DNA of 64,000 nt from assembly GCF_003544935.1 (NCBI RefSeq), contig NZ_CP032098.1, positions 1,488,001-1,552,000 on the forward strand, read 5' to 3'. Shown here one piece after another: positions 1 to 4,667 of the stretch. The translations under genes and the position numbers were made by a program. Below the pieces are notes generated by a model, which was not told the DNA's origin, ran no database searches, and saw only the letters and a list, made by a program, of their open reading frames with translations. Source of the DNA: Malaciobacter molluscorum LMG 25693. Lineage in GTDB: Bacteria > Campylobacterota > Campylobacteria > Campylobacterales > Arcobacteraceae. Positions within the stretch are counted from its first letter, which is position 1. The number at the start of each line of letters is the position of its first letter.

Positions 1-1
1 T

Positions 2-967
2 ATAGTAGATTCAATCTCTTTTAGATTTGTAGGAATATATGATACTGTAACTCATTATGGAGTTATTCAATCAAATGATTCTGATGATTTAAATATTAAT
101 TTCTTTGAAAATGATAATAATAAAAAAGTAGGACATGTAGTTCATCTAATGGCAGATGATGAATTTAGATATAACTTTGAAGCATACTCTATTTTTCTAG
201 ATATAAATAAACATTATTATAAAGATAGTACAGAGAAAAGAAAAGATGGTGGCCCAAGATTTGAAGAGTTTTATGTTCCTGGAGCTCATGCAGATGTAGG
301 AGGGGGATATAATGAAGAAAATGAATTAGTTTATCTTGGTGATTTTATAATAGAAAATAAAAAAATACCAGAATATTTAGAGAAAAATATAGAAAAATGG
401 AATAATAAATATAACTGGCTAAAAAATAATGAATTAATACAAAAAGATTCAAAAAAAGATATTGATAAATTAAAAGAAAAACCAGAAAAAGAAGGTTTTT
501 ATTATTATATAAAAAATGTATATAACTTAAATCAAAGAGAAGATATTTGGGGTAATTCTTCAAATTGGCAATATCATTTACACTTGTATATGTATAGACC
601 CAAAGTATCAAATAAATATGAACATGTAACAATGAAACTAATGTATGATAAAGCTATATATAAAGATTCAAAAACTCAAAGTAATAAAAAAGATGAATTT
701 GAGGTTGTTCCTCTTGGAAGCTTTAATAAATATACATTTGCAGAAGATGAGATTTTAACAAAAACATATAAAGCACTTAAAAAACATGAAGTTTTAAAAA
801 CTCAAGATAATGAAACATACAAAAAGTTAAAAGACAATTATTTGCATCACTCTTCACAATTTGGTAATTTTGTGAATAAACCTTCTAATGAAAAGAAAAC
901 TAGTTTTGAACTATATGGCAAAAGAGTTATTTACTCTACTGACGGTAAAGAATTTACTAGAAGTTAA
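2..967 (+). CDS. DUF2235 / Tle1-like phospholipase, 5'-truncated by the window edge
   Basis: The frame is open from base 2 and gives 321 visible residues; the true start lies outside the window. Two hallmarks of the DUF2235 alpha/beta-hydrolase domain are visible: FVGIYDTVTHYG near residues 9-20 and GAHADVGGGY near 94-103. In this family these carry the Asp and His of the catalytic triad; the GxSxG nucleophile elbow should lie upstream. Family members include type VI secretion phospholipase effectors (Tle1), which attack membrane lipids of rival cells. The C-terminal half is Lys/Glu-rich and not recognisable. A membrane protein and a lipoprotein follow on the same strand. No VgrG, Hcp or PAAR gene is in the window, so the T6SS link is inferred from family only. 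Confidence 0.8.
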   Translation: MVDSISFRFVGIYDTVTHYGVIQSNDSDDLNINFFENDNNKKVGHVVHLMADDEFRYNFEAYSIFLDINKHYYKDSTEKRKDGGPRFEEFYVPGAHADVGGGYNEENELVYLGDFIIENKKIPEYLEKNIEKWNNKYNWLKNNELIQKDSKKDIDKLKEKPEKEGFYYYIKNVYNLNQREDIWGNSSNWQYHLHLYMYRPKVSNKYEHVTMKLMYDKAIYKDSKTQSNKKDEFEVVPLGSFNKYTFAEDEILTKTYKALKKHEVLKTQDNETYKKLKDNYLHHSSQFGNFVNKPSNEKKTSFELYGKRVIYSTDGKEFTRS

Positions 968-995
968 TTTTATATATAACTAATAATATTATTTT

Positions 996-1045
996 AACCT
1001 AATTTTTAATATTATTTAGTAATAATGTTAAAAATTATTAAGGTT
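996..1045 (+). other. Long imperfect hairpin between lipase gene and next gene
   Basis: AACCT (996-1000) and AATTTTTAA (1001-1009) pair with TTAAAAATT (1028-1036) and AGGTT (1041-1045), with a small bulge and an AT-rich inner stem. It ends just before the ATG of the next gene and overlaps its AAGG ribosome-binding region. It could be a weak terminator or could limit translation of the next gene. Confidence 0.4.
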
Positions 1046-1050
1046 GATAA

Positions 1051-2013
1051 ATGGATTTTAATATTTATACGAATATTTATGAAGAGCTTATAAATACAAA
1101 AAACAATCTAAATTCAAGATATTTTATAAACAAATATTCTTTATCTGAGATTGAATTAAAAACTATACTAATTAAGATAAAAGAAAATGAATATATAAGT
1201 AAAGATAATAAAATATTAAAAGATATTCTTTCTGAACTAGAAGATTATGAAATTGATTTCTCAATTTTCACAAAAATCAATAATAATAAAAAAAATGATT
1301 TAAATATTCAATCAAATAAACCAATAAATAAAATAAAAATCAAAGATAAAATGGTTGATTTTATTTCAAATTTTATAAAAGAACTTAGATCAAGATTAGA
1401 AAATATAAACCTTGAAAAAAAACAATATATACAATTAGGAATAGGGTTCATAAGTATTATATTAATATTTTCAATTACTACTTATATAATAAATTCAAAA
1501 GAAAATACAAATACTTCTTCAAATATAGAAAAAGAAAATATTACAACAAATAATATTACTAATGAAAAAAAACTACTAGTAGTATCTAATAATATTGATA
1601 CTATTAAGATAAATAATACAAATACAGAAAAAAAAGAAGAAGATATTATTTCTTCAAAAGAAAACTCTATGACAGTTAACGTAGAAGATAAGCTAGATAG
1701 CATAAAAGTTATAAAAAATGAAAAAGAAAATAGCGTAAGAGCTATTATTACATATGATGATAAAAAAGAACAAAAAAATACAATACAAAAGCAAAGCAAT
1801 ACTAAAAACTCAAATACAAAACTTGTTATTAGAACAGAATTTAATAGTATAAAAGATGATTTAAAATATGAAAATCATATGATTAAATATAAAAATAAAT
1901 ATTATAAAGAAAATGATATATTAGAAGGGTATAAAATCTTCAAGATTACTCCTGCTTATGTTAAGTTTGAAGATACAAAAACAAATATAAGAAAAAGAGT
2001 TCTTTTAAATTAA
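1051..2013 (+). CDS. Single-pass membrane protein of unknown function
   Basis: This 320-residue protein is not assigned to a family. It has an N-terminal, mostly helical, presumably cytoplasmic region (1-125), one clear transmembrane helix near 127-148 (IGFISIILIFSITTYII), and a long low-complexity Asn/Lys/Thr/Glu region. The last 45 residues form a compact segment, KYKNKYYKENDILEGYKIFK, followed by a short beta-like tail. That tail resembles the small C-terminal domain of secretion and pilus accessory proteins (GspB/PilP-like), but this is impressionistic. It lies between the lipase gene and a lipoprotein gene, so a role with the lipase, as accessory or immunity factor, is possible but unproven. 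Confidence 0.6.
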   Translation: MDFNIYTNIYEELINTKNNLNSRYFINKYSLSEIELKTILIKIKENEYISKDNKILKDILSELEDYEIDFSIFTKINNNKKNDLNIQSNKPINKIKIKDKMVDFISNFIKELRSRLENINLEKKQYIQLGIGFISIILIFSITTYIINSKENTNTSSNIEKENITTNNITNEKKLLVVSNNIDTIKINNTNTEKKEEDIISSKENSMTVNVEDKLDSIKVIKNEKENSVRAIITYDDKKEQKNTIQKQSNTKNSNTKLVIRTEFNSIKDDLKYENHMIKYKNKYYKENDILEGYKIFKITPAYVKFEDTKTNIRKRVLLN

Positions 2014-2034
2014 AAATAAAGGAGTGCACTAAAT

Positions 2035-2412
2035 ATGAAAAAAAGATCACTATTTTCTTCATTGTTAATTGCAAGTATATTACTTAGTGGTTGTAGTATG
2101 AAAGAACAAAAAGTTGAACCTAAAAAGGTAGAAAAACAACAAAGTCTAAATGAACAATATAGTATAAATGAAAAACAAGGTTATACTTTTTTTAAGATGC
2201 AAACTAATCCAATTGAAGTTTTTGTATATGATGGTGACTATAAAACAAATGAAGTTTTAGATGACACAAAAATTAAAAGTTCATTTTATTTAAAAGGAAG
2301 ACTTTTAAGAATAGAAAAAGTATATAAAACAAAGTATGATGACCATTATGGTAAAATATCACAAAAAGGTTTATTTGTATCAATGGATGACTTAATAAAA
2401 TATGAAAAATAA
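2035..2412 (+). CDS. Small lipoprotein, possible immunity protein
   Basis: The gene has a very good ribosome-binding site (AAAGGAG). The 125-residue product starts with a lipoprotein signal peptide, MKKRSLFSSLLIASILLSGC, with lipobox LLSGC and Cys20 as the lipidated residue. The mature part (about 105 residues) is Lys-rich and then beta-like, with alternating hydrophobics around IEVFVYDGDY and RLLRIEKVYK. It follows the preceding gene by 21 nt, so the two are probably co-transcribed. Known immunity proteins for T6SS phospholipases are often periplasmic lipoproteins, so it is a candidate cognate immunity protein for the lipase; that is inference from position and localisation only. Confidence 0.7.
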   Translation: MKKRSLFSSLLIASILLSGCSMKEQKVEPKKVEKQQSLNEQYSINEKQGYTFFKMQTNPIEVFVYDGDYKTNEVLDDTKIKSSFYLKGRLLRIEKVYKTKYDDHYGKISQKGLFVSMDDLIKYEK

Positions 2413-2467: not shown

Positions 2468-2495
2468 TAATTTGGAAATTATAGTTTCCAAAAGT
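2468..2495. other. difH: Candidate chromosomal dif (difH-like) recombination site
   Basis: A near-palindrome of dif architecture: TTTGGAAA (2471-2478), a 6-nt centre TTATAG (2479-2484), and TTTCCAAA (2485-2492), within an 11-6-11 frame. It sits 25 bp upstream of the preferred xerH start and outside any supported gene. Gene orientation switches from plus on the left to almost uniformly minus on the right, as expected at a terminus. Identification is by structure and context, not by comparison with a reference site. Confidence 0.65.
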
Positions 2496-2519: not shown

Positions 2520-3572
2520 ATGAAATATCCATTAGATTGTGAAAACAACTTTGAAAAAACATTTTTATTTTGGTTATGTCGTTTTCTTAGAAATAAAATA
2601 ACTTCTTTATCAAATAGACAAGTAAAAGATAAAGATAGATTAGCTCAAATACTTCATGAATTGATTTTAGGTTTTGAATCCATTAGTGAATTAAAAATAG
2701 TAATTAAAGAAGTAAGAAATATAGGAATAAATAGTATTCACGTATATTTTATACCTCTTCAAAAGTTATACACATTTTTAGCTAATTTTGGGGCTAAGTC
2801 ATTAAAAGAGATTGATGAAGAATTATTAAGTGATTTTCTGGCTTCCCAAACTGCTAATTTATCAGATGCAACAAAAAAAAACTATAGAATTGCCCTAATT
2901 TCATTTTTTGGGTATATTGATAAACAAAATGAAGAAAAAAATGGTTTTGTCCATAGATTTGGAATTGAGCTTAAAAATTGGGGAGGTTTATCTGGAAAAT
3001 CTGGTACAAAACTACCCTCTTTTATGAAAAAAGATGAAGTTCATAGATTTATTGAAGGAATTGAATCTTATCCTTTTAGTACAAAAATTGCAGCAAGAAA
3101 TCGTTTAATTATAAAAACTATACTATACACAGGGATTAGAGTCAGCGAAGCTATAAATATTGATATAAAAGATTTTAATAAAGATGAAGATGCTTATATT
3201 ATTCAAGTACGAGGTAAAGGTAATAAACCAAGAGTTGTTATGATAAAAGAATCAATAATTAAAAAAGACTTAAATGAATGGTTTGAACATAGAGTTTGTG
3301 ATAATAATTTACTTTTTTATAATCAAAAAGGTAAACCTTTAAGTCAAGCTTATATTAGTAGTATAGTAGAAAAAATTCTTTTAAGTATAGGAATAAGAAA
3401 AGAAAAAAATGGTGCACATATGTTAAGACATACATTTGCAACAATGCTTTACCAAAAAAGTAAAGATTTAATTCTTGTACAAGAATCATTAGGGCATGCA
3501 GATATTAATACTTCTAGAATTTATACACATTTTGATAAAGATAAATTAAGAAAAACAACAGATATATTTTAA
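2520..3572 (+). CDS. xerH: Tyrosine recombinase XerH (chromosome dimer resolution)
   Basis: XerH is the single Xer recombinase of Campylobacterota and resolves chromosome dimers at difH. The 350-residue product has the N-terminal core-binding domain (FLRNKITSLSNRQVKD, then ATKKNYRIALISFFGYIDKQ) and a C-terminal catalytic domain. Catalytic motifs are visible: TGIRVSEA (Arg), RGKGNKPR (Lys), HMLRHTFAT (His-x-x-Arg), LGHADINTS (His) and the nucleophile Tyr in RIYTHFDK. A longer frame opens at a TTG at 2472, but the ATG at 2520 has an AAGG Shine-Dalgarno and matches where XerH proteins begin (MKYPL). The longer version would also run through the dif-like palindrome. It is a resident Xer protein rather than a phage integrase. 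Confidence 0.9.
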   Translation: MKYPLDCENNFEKTFLFWLCRFLRNKITSLSNRQVKDKDRLAQILHELILGFESISELKIVIKEVRNIGINSIHVYFIPLQKLYTFLANFGAKSLKEIDEELLSDFLASQTANLSDATKKNYRIALISFFGYIDKQNEEKNGFVHRFGIELKNWGGLSGKSGTKLPSFMKKDEVHRFIEGIESYPFSTKIAARNRLIIKTILYTGIRVSEAINIDIKDFNKDEDAYIIQVRGKGNKPRVVMIKESIIKKDLNEWFEHRVCDNNLLFYNQKGKPLSQAYISSIVEKILLSIGIRKEKNGAHMLRHTFATMLYQKSKDLILVQESLGHADINTSRIYTHFDKDKLRKTTDIF

Positions 3573-3593
3573 ATAGGGTAAACTACCCTATTT
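3571..3593. terminator. Bidirectional terminator between xerH and cheB
   Basis: A perfect 10-bp stem, AAATAGGGTA / TACCCTATTT, closes a 3-nt loop between the convergent xerH and cheB genes. It is flanked by T-rich sequence on the plus strand and A/T-rich xerH coding sequence on the other side. Confidence 0.75.
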
Positions 3594-4667
3594 TCTTTTA
3601 TTTTTAGAAAAATCAACTATATAATCAGCAATTTCTTCCAAAGGAACAATATCTTTTACTGCGTTTGCTTCAATTGCTTTTGCTGGCATTCCAAAAACTA
3701 CACAAGTCTCTTTATTTTGTGCAACAGTATATGCACCATTATCATGTAGCTCTTTCATTGCAATTGTTCCATCATCTCCCATTCCTGTCATCATTACAGC
3801 CATTGCTCCACCACCTGCACTATTATTTACAGATCTAAATAAAACATCAACACTTGGTTTATGATGACTAACTTTTTTAGTATCTAAAAGTCTTGTAGTG
3901 TATTTCCCATCTCTTCTTTTTTCAATTGTTAAGTGCATATTTCCTGGTGCTAAATAAGCATGTCCATATTCTAATATCATTGCATCTTTAGCTTCATACA
4001 CCACAACACTTGAATTAGCATTTAATCTTTGTGCAAAAGAAGAAGAGAATCCATAAGGAATATGCTGAGTAATTACAATTGGTGGTAAATTGGAAGGCAA
4101 CCTTTTAAAAACCTTCAATAAAGATTCAACTCCTCCCGTTGAAGAACCAATTGCAATAACTTTACTTCCAGGAAATGTAGCTTGATGTAACTTTATTACT
4201 TCATCTGGATGGATTTTATATTCAATTTCATGAACAGTTTTTGATTTTATTGGTTTTAAAGGTTTTGGTTTTTTTAAAGTATATCTTTTAAGTAAGAAAG
4301 TAAGATTTAGTAATGTATCTTTAATTCTTGCTTGAAAATTTATCATAGATTCACCATTTTCAGGTTTAGGTATAAAACCTACAGCACCATCATCAAAAAT
4401 ATCATTTCCTCTTACACTCTCACCTGAAACAACAACTGCAGGCATAGGATGAAGTCTCATCAAGTTCCTAAGAAATGTTACTCCATCCATTTTTGGCATA
4501 TTAATATCAATTGTTACTAAGTCTGGTTCATATTGTTTTATTTTTTCTCTTGCATCATAAGCATCCATTGCATCTGCAATAACCTCAAATTCCTCAATTG
4601 AATTTATCATATCTTTTAAAATTCTTCTCATTGAAGGTGAATCATCTATAACTAATACTGTATACAT
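3588..4667 (-). CDS. cheB: CheB, chemoreceptor glutamate methylesterase with receiver domain
   Basis: CheB removes methyl groups from chemoreceptor glutamates and so resets adaptation. The 359-residue protein has an N-terminal receiver domain (acid pocket DD at 8-9, phospho-acceptor Asp54 in IDINMP) and a C-terminal methylesterase domain. Catalytic motifs are GSSTGG (Ser), TQHIP (His) and MTGMGDDG (Asp). The receiver is notable because the main CheB of Campylobacter and its relatives is known to lack one, so this copy should be controllable by CheA phosphorylation. It is the last gene of cheY-cheA-cheR-cheD-cheB, 13 nt after cheD. Confidence 0.95.
   Translation of the reverse strand: MYTVLVIDDSPSMRRILKDMINSIEEFEVIADAMDAYDAREKIKQYEPDLVTIDINMPKMDGVTFLRNLMRLHPMPAVVVSGESVRGNDIFDDGAVGFIPKPENGESMINFQARIKDTLLNLTFLLKRYTLKKPKPLKPIKSKTVHEIEYKIHPDEVIKLHQATFPGSKVIAIGSSTGGVESLLKVFKRLPSNLPPIVITQHIPYGFSSSFAQRLNANSSVVVYEAKDAMILEYGHAYLAPGNMHLTIEKRRDGKYTTRLLDTKKVSHHKPSVDVLFRSVNNSAGGGAMAVMMTGMGDDGTIAMKELHDNGAYTVAQNKETCVVFGMPAKAIEANAVKDIVPLEEIADYIVDFSKNKRK

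Follow-up and report, generated by a model that had tools for sequence, protein, structure and literature searches.

A variant difH-type site and its neighbouring XerH recombinase, apparently a second specificity class that replaced the classical pair in the Arcobacter family

The dif site and its Xer recombinase are usually viewed as a conserved, vertically kept system. In Helicobacter, Campylobacter and Aliarcobacter butzleri a single recombinase, XerH, is paired with difH, a palindromic site with the core CTATAA that lies near the terminus and often beside xerH (PMC2731167; 5JJV and 5JK0, PMC5241119). The dif/XerL system of the Legionellales and LME-1 is likewise a one-recombinase dif hijacked by an integrating element; it uses a different Xer, and no replaced pair with changed specificity is reported for it, although in Coxiella the only Xer is plasmid-borne, so that an acquired element serves chromosome dimer resolution (PMC9765430). 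IMEX elements, those of the CTXphi type, and XerT/TnPZ of H. pylori integrate at dif to leave one intact and one hybrid site. In engineered Cre/lox specificity variants (e.g. PDB 1PVP-1PVR, Tre 5U91), changes in a few recombinase residues retarget the site arms.

We analysed a stretch of 64,000 nucleotides of the Malaciobacter molluscorum LMG 25693 chromosome (NZ_CP032098.1, positions 1,488,001 to 1,552,000), referred to here as the window. Its dif and xerH resemble difH/XerH in the single recombinase, the palindrome with core CTATAA, the location, and the fold and catalytic residues of the enzyme, but the site has G:C in place of A:T in each arm and the enzyme has His74-Val75 in place of Asn-Thr. 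We refer to sites of the classical type (TTGAAAA/TTTTCAA) as GA and to those of the window type (TTGGAAA/TTTCCAA) as GG. The window XerH belongs to a separate GG clade, whose identity to the classical enzymes is about 60-67%. With high confidence, we interpret the locus as a variant dif and the sole recombinase XerH, jointly shifted in specificity, that make up an in-place replacement module. The relevant features are as follows.

2035..2412, plus strand: small lipoprotein gene, left neighbour of the site
2468..2495, minus strand in the canonical reading (core CTATAA): difH-type site of the GG class, from alignment with published difH and the site consensus
2471..2492, no strand: perfect inverted repeat TTTGGAAA/TTTCCAAA with a 6-bp core between
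2479..2484: central hexamer TTATAG (CTATAA on the minus strand), presumed strand-exchange region
2520..3572, plus strand: xerH, 350 aa, single-recombinase XerH type (PF18644 and PF00589)
2739..2744, plus strand: codons of His74-Val75, at the N-terminal end of helix 73-90 and candidates for determining specificity
3571..3593, plus strand: terminator-like hairpin in the xerH/cheB gap, from a consensus scan alone
3588..4667, minus strand: cheB of the cheA-R-D-B cluster

The initial annotation of this DNA had described a dif-like palindrome with a TTATAG centre before xerH, and the sequence is as claimed. The 28-mer at 2468-2495 (TAATTTGGAAATTATAGTTTCCAAAAGT) has G or C at 6 of its 28 bases and includes two inverted repeats about a 6-bp centre in a perfect 8-6-8 layout (TTTGGAAA at 2471-2478, TTATAG at 2479-2484 and TTTCCAAA at 2485-2492). 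On the minus strand 2468..2495 reads ACTTTTGGAAA CTATAA TTTCCAAATTA, and the minus strand across the site reads AAAATTACTTTTGGAAACTATAATTTCCAAATTATAATAT. The site is non-coding and lies between the lipoprotein gene and the xerH ATG, from which the 28-mer is separated by 24 bp and the palindrome by 27 bp. Allowing up to three mismatches, its 22-mer is present at one place in the window, with 0.06 expected in shuffles, and a scan of the whole 2,800,582-bp single-contig genome likewise gave one copy, in keeping with the proposed assignment to dif. The CTATAA core is common to published difH sites and to nearly all GG and GA sites, and the core hexamer is present in both att sites of prophages at dif.

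The contig has dnaA at base 13, which places the window dif 53.2% of the way round. Genes are on the plus strand through the end of xerH (3572) and on the minus strand from cheB (3588), as the orientation switch noted previously near the site would have it. GC skew changes at dif from about +0.12 to +0.26 to between -0.2 and -0.3, and over a contiguous 152 kb (1.400-1.552 Mb) the cumulative skew has its maximum at 1,491,578, 1.1 kb from dif. Across sampled stretches making up 45% of the 2.80 Mb genome a long steady fall in cumulative skew starts at dif, and the global maximum is nearer 1.3 Mb, about 0.2 Mb away; the expected coincidence with the skew inflection is thus seen locally and only roughly at the global scale. 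The proposal that the palindrome pins the terminus holds for dif, but not for a strict fork-meeting point, given the distance to the sampled global maximum. The location is ordinary for a dif; the published difH sites shown lie about 16-90 kb from the cumulative skew peak (PMC2731167), against about 0.2 Mb for the window dif in the sampled genome. Assignment of the palindrome as the chromosomal dif, a difH-type Xer site for the adjacent XerH, is supported by its single copy, its intergenic and mid-chromosome position, the local skew switch and the CTATAA core, by the occurrence of this site next to the orthologous xerH in many relatives, and by a sister-species prophage integrated exactly at the GG site.

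The xerH product matches PF18644 (XerH N-terminal domain) and PF00589 (tyrosine recombinase), both above cut-off, and it is the sole XerH-type recombinase of the chromosome (one match in the genome). Its catalytic positions R207, K233, H300, R303, H326 and Y335 are invariant across 33 aligned XerHs, and its closest structural matches are 5JJV, which ranks top, and 5JK0. From homology with H. pylori XerH/difH, we infer that the pair resolves chromosome dimers at division: two XerH molecules would bind the two arms of dif, FtsK would presumably activate them at the division septum, and recombination of both dif copies of a dimer within the 6-bp core would yield two monomers.

The distinguishing property of the locus lies in the arms of the site, whose departure from the consensus, like the distinct XerH clade that goes with it, had escaped the initial annotation. 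Relative to the A. butzleri site (TTAATTAGTATTGAAAACTATAATTTTCAAATAAAATATA), one of the difH sites of this order listed by Carnoy and Roten (PMC2731167), the core CTATAA is identical and the outer arms are alike, but two mirror positions differ within the palindrome. The window site fails the published difH consensus TGAAAAC---A-TTTTCAAA, with TGGAAAC and TTTCCAAA instead, and because it is off consensus at these two symmetric positions we filed it as a variant and not as classical difH; the suggested alignment with difH sites of relatives therefore agrees in the core and departs from the consensus in the arms. The class-defining base pair is the A:T that follows TTG in GA sites, which is G:C in both arms of GG sites, and both arms are invariant within each class (35 GG and 53 GA sites). 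By our own count from the published description, the changed pair is among the inner 5 bp per arm that are read specifically by H. pylori XerH; mutations in these 5 bp abolished or strongly reduced cleavage (PMC5241119).

XerH genes were gathered from genomes within and beyond the Arcobacter family. By our count, in 29 of the 104 family genomes a GG site adjoins an xerH of the GG clade, and GA sites accompany the other XerHs; enzymes about 67-92% identical to that of the window have a GG site upstream, whereas less similar ones have a GA site. The GG pair apparently constitutes a second specificity class of XerH/dif that is apparently undescribed: we found no description of it in the open-access literature, and an earlier account elsewhere is possible. 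Matches to the GG pattern with other cores (in G010, G011, G028, G062, G084 and G090:C30) have no xerH alongside and were discarded as chance occurrences. Separately, at xerH loci of Sulfurospirillum (L081, L070 and related) the enzymes have Asn at 74 and Leu at 75, with neither a GA nor a GG site in the vicinity; these possibly represent a third class of site.

When 34 GG and 54 GA enzymes are aligned, columns 74 and 75 are the only ones that share no residue between the classes, with His followed by Val or Leu in GG enzymes and Asn (rarely Ser) followed by Thr in GA enzymes. In a predicted AlphaFold model of XerH (N-terminal domain good, domain placement poor, pTM 0.50), residue 74 opens helix 73-90, which is the fourth in the N-terminal domain. 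A pairing of Asn with A and of His with G would fit general protein-DNA contact preferences. The four-helix bundle of H. pylori XerH (aa 12-88) enters the major groove, and the main text of that report names no XerH residue contacting the changed base pair (PMC5241119).

Residue 74 was also used for prediction, in that two His74 enzymes with no site nearby (L019 and L049) were chosen first and their genomes then searched for sites; each genome has a GG site with the core CTATAA elsewhere. Conversely, the XerHs of G032 and G033 lie inside the GG clade yet have lost His74 and have Ser74, which is also present in one GA enzyme (L200). Both genomes have one perfect GA site, core CTATAA, 33-35 kb from xerH, and searches of them found no GG site. 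The site class appears to follow residue 74 through one gain and one reversal, and the strength of this link is limited because there are just two independent transitions and most GG enzymes form one clade (SH-aLRT 99; 98 without columns 72-76). It seems rather improbable that the GG site is simply a drifted difH, used by an XerH that accepts either version such that the A-to-G change is functionally meaningless. The core and outer arms do remain near the classical consensus, and with a single GG origin on the XerH tree common descent by itself accounts for most of the correlation; however, the arms change together and are invariant per class, the changed pair falls within the inner 5 bp whose mutation abolished or strongly reduced H. 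pylori XerH cleavage, and the reversal in G032 and G033 and the two successful predictions also speak against mere drift. We favour a natural switch in which site and enzyme would have shifted specificity together, G:C after TTG in both arms with His74-Val75 in XerH, and residues 74-75 are the candidate determinants. Unlike the engineered Cre/lox variants, the GG change appears to be natural, and the system it affects maintains the chromosome. A change of Asn to His matched by one of A to G is a simple idea that can readily be checked, and would offer a minimal natural test of site reading by tyrosine recombinases, with residue 74 as a putative rule for predicting dif in Arcobacter-family genomes.

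Prophages integrated at dif provide information on site use. G079 belongs to the same genus and has a GG pair; there, an insert of about 9 kb parts the lipoprotein gene from xerH. The lipoprotein gene, which in most of the genus is conserved next to dif on its left, sits to the left of the prophage. One end of the insert is a hybrid, TTATAGTTTGGAAATTATAGT joined to AACCATTTTCAGC (junction TTTGGAAATTATAGT followed by AACC), and the other is an intact GG site; the window is the empty-site counterpart, in which this lipoprotein gene is followed directly by an unbroken site. The coat and packaging-ATPase genes of the insert are 51% and 72% identical to those of a prophage in G034, whose coat has a weak Pfam P2_C match below cut-off, and which has a matching arrangement at a GA site with the junction GCTGAAATTGGCAA joined to CTATAATTTTCAAAC. 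In G057 a prophage occupies a GA site with the core CCATAA, and both ends bear CCATAA. Across the three prophages the arm contributed by the phage is similar and the other arm follows the host's class; phages integrating at dif appear to carry a half-site of their host's class. Judged from their sequences, these junctions are footprints of XerH integration at dif, and the corticovirus-like prophage exactly at the GG site in G079, a sister species, is indirect evidence that the GG site recombines in nature. The one intact and one hybrid site in G079, G034 and G090 recall the IMEX and XerT patterns, although, unlike those elements, some of the inserted DNA here brings its own dif and an xerH of other specificity.

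The three prophages, each about 9 kb and exactly at dif, are at L217:470-9424, L211:6876-16171 and L215:10617-19778; coat and packaging-ATPase genes are common to two of the three, with a weak hint of a corticovirus (PM2) P2 coat. Among viral contigs there was one xerH match in all and no GG module. This match, an IMG/VR contig (L273:1125-4921), has a filamentous-phage-like gene set adjoining a classical dif and the host's xerH, and was rejected as a GG carrier as its xerH is of the host GA type beside a filamentous-phage-like prophage.

The xerH ATG follows the palindrome by 27 bp, and promoter-like sequences overlap the palindrome, as would be expected if it were mainly an operator for xerH autoregulation and not a recombination site. 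We consider this very improbable, since the corresponding site is 33-35 kb from xerH in G032 and G033, several Campylobacter sites are 36-68 kb from xerH (PMC2731167), a prophage has recombined into the orthologous site in G079, and a promoter scan of the window site scored barely above shuffles. A dual role in recombination and as an operator is possible.

GG enzymes form one clade on the XerH tree, on which the GG/GA label changes once, but there are at least eight changes on a host tree built from CheA/CheR/CheD/CheB and PepF; the latter is from a quick search, and its genes adjoin dif and may themselves have moved. Classically the order is pepF, a coiled-coil gene, Y91, xerH (GA, reversed), dif (GA) and cheB-D-R-A reversed (G080, G094, G069 and others); the boundary of the dif/xerH locus that is conserved throughout the family is cheB. 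The GG pair fills the Y91-cheB interval in one orientation in G091, G061, G076 and G096 and in the other in G055, G066 and G083. In the window genome pepF and Y91 (1,460-1,463 kb) are followed by a type VI secretion cluster, the GG pair and cheB, and there is neither a leftover classical half-site nor a second xerH. The type VI cluster fills the Y91-dif interval (genome 1,463-1,490 kb, its right end being window 1-2412) and includes TssB/C-like, ClpV-like, Hcp-like and VgrG-like genes, with a candidate Tle1-like lipase gene truncated at the left edge of the window; in G032 similar genes directly adjoin dif.

Two genomes look like intermediates. In G090 the classical xerH and a GA site are both intact; the GG pair, about 1.2 kb long, is bounded by this GA site on one side and by a GA half-site (TTAGTCTTGAAAAC) on the other. 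G002 also retains a classical xerH, but the two halves of its GA site are about 20 kb apart, with the GG pair, a gamma-mobile-trio set (GmtX/Y/Z, each above its NCBIfam cut-off) and a 6A-MBL defence pair in between. Dif-derived half-sites flank the GG module in both, and both genomes look like insertions into an old dif, the old pair presumably having been lost in other lineages. Since the host and XerH trees disagree, the neighbours are the same and there are two intermediate genomes, the GG pair apparently replaced the classical pair at the same chromosomal position on several occasions within the Arcobacter family. On this sequence evidence a GG module of about 1.2 kb would have taken the place of the classical module in the Y91-cheB interval, in some cases after inserting into the classical dif, and the junctions in G090 and G002 suggest that it moved by XerH acting on dif.

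It is unlikely, in our estimation, that the switching is merely apparent, with an ancestor that had both pairs and lineages that lost one or the other. Two living genomes, G002 and G090, do have both xerH types, but the GG enzymes of one genus (g10) are scattered on the XerH tree and not grouped together, the modules are in both orientations relative to cheB, and in G002 the GG pair is on a mobile island within a split dif. Repeated replacement in place remains our preferred reading, and dif and its recombinase would then be a swappable module in which site and enzyme changed together. More tentatively, xerH-dif modules of shifted specificity might be selfish or protective replacement cassettes, which insert at the resident dif, make the host dependent by putting their own dimer-resolution system in place of its own and may free the chromosome from phages that use the old dif.

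We also looked for carriers of the GG pair. The element in G002, a gamma-mobile-trio element from L202:4653 to L203:4870, splits dif and has the 6A-MBL anti-phage pair together with the GG xerH; such elements were rejected as a general carrier, GmtY being above cut-off in G002 alone among the 104 family genomes. Plasmids yielded only remote XerH relatives (about 30% identity) and no home for the GG pair. A contig of G093 (L205:1964-4545) has a second xerH of the GG clade (75%, core GCTAGA), which faces a third xerH that is decayed and contains a stop; with a degenerate second site also present, this is possibly the trace of an older round of replacement.
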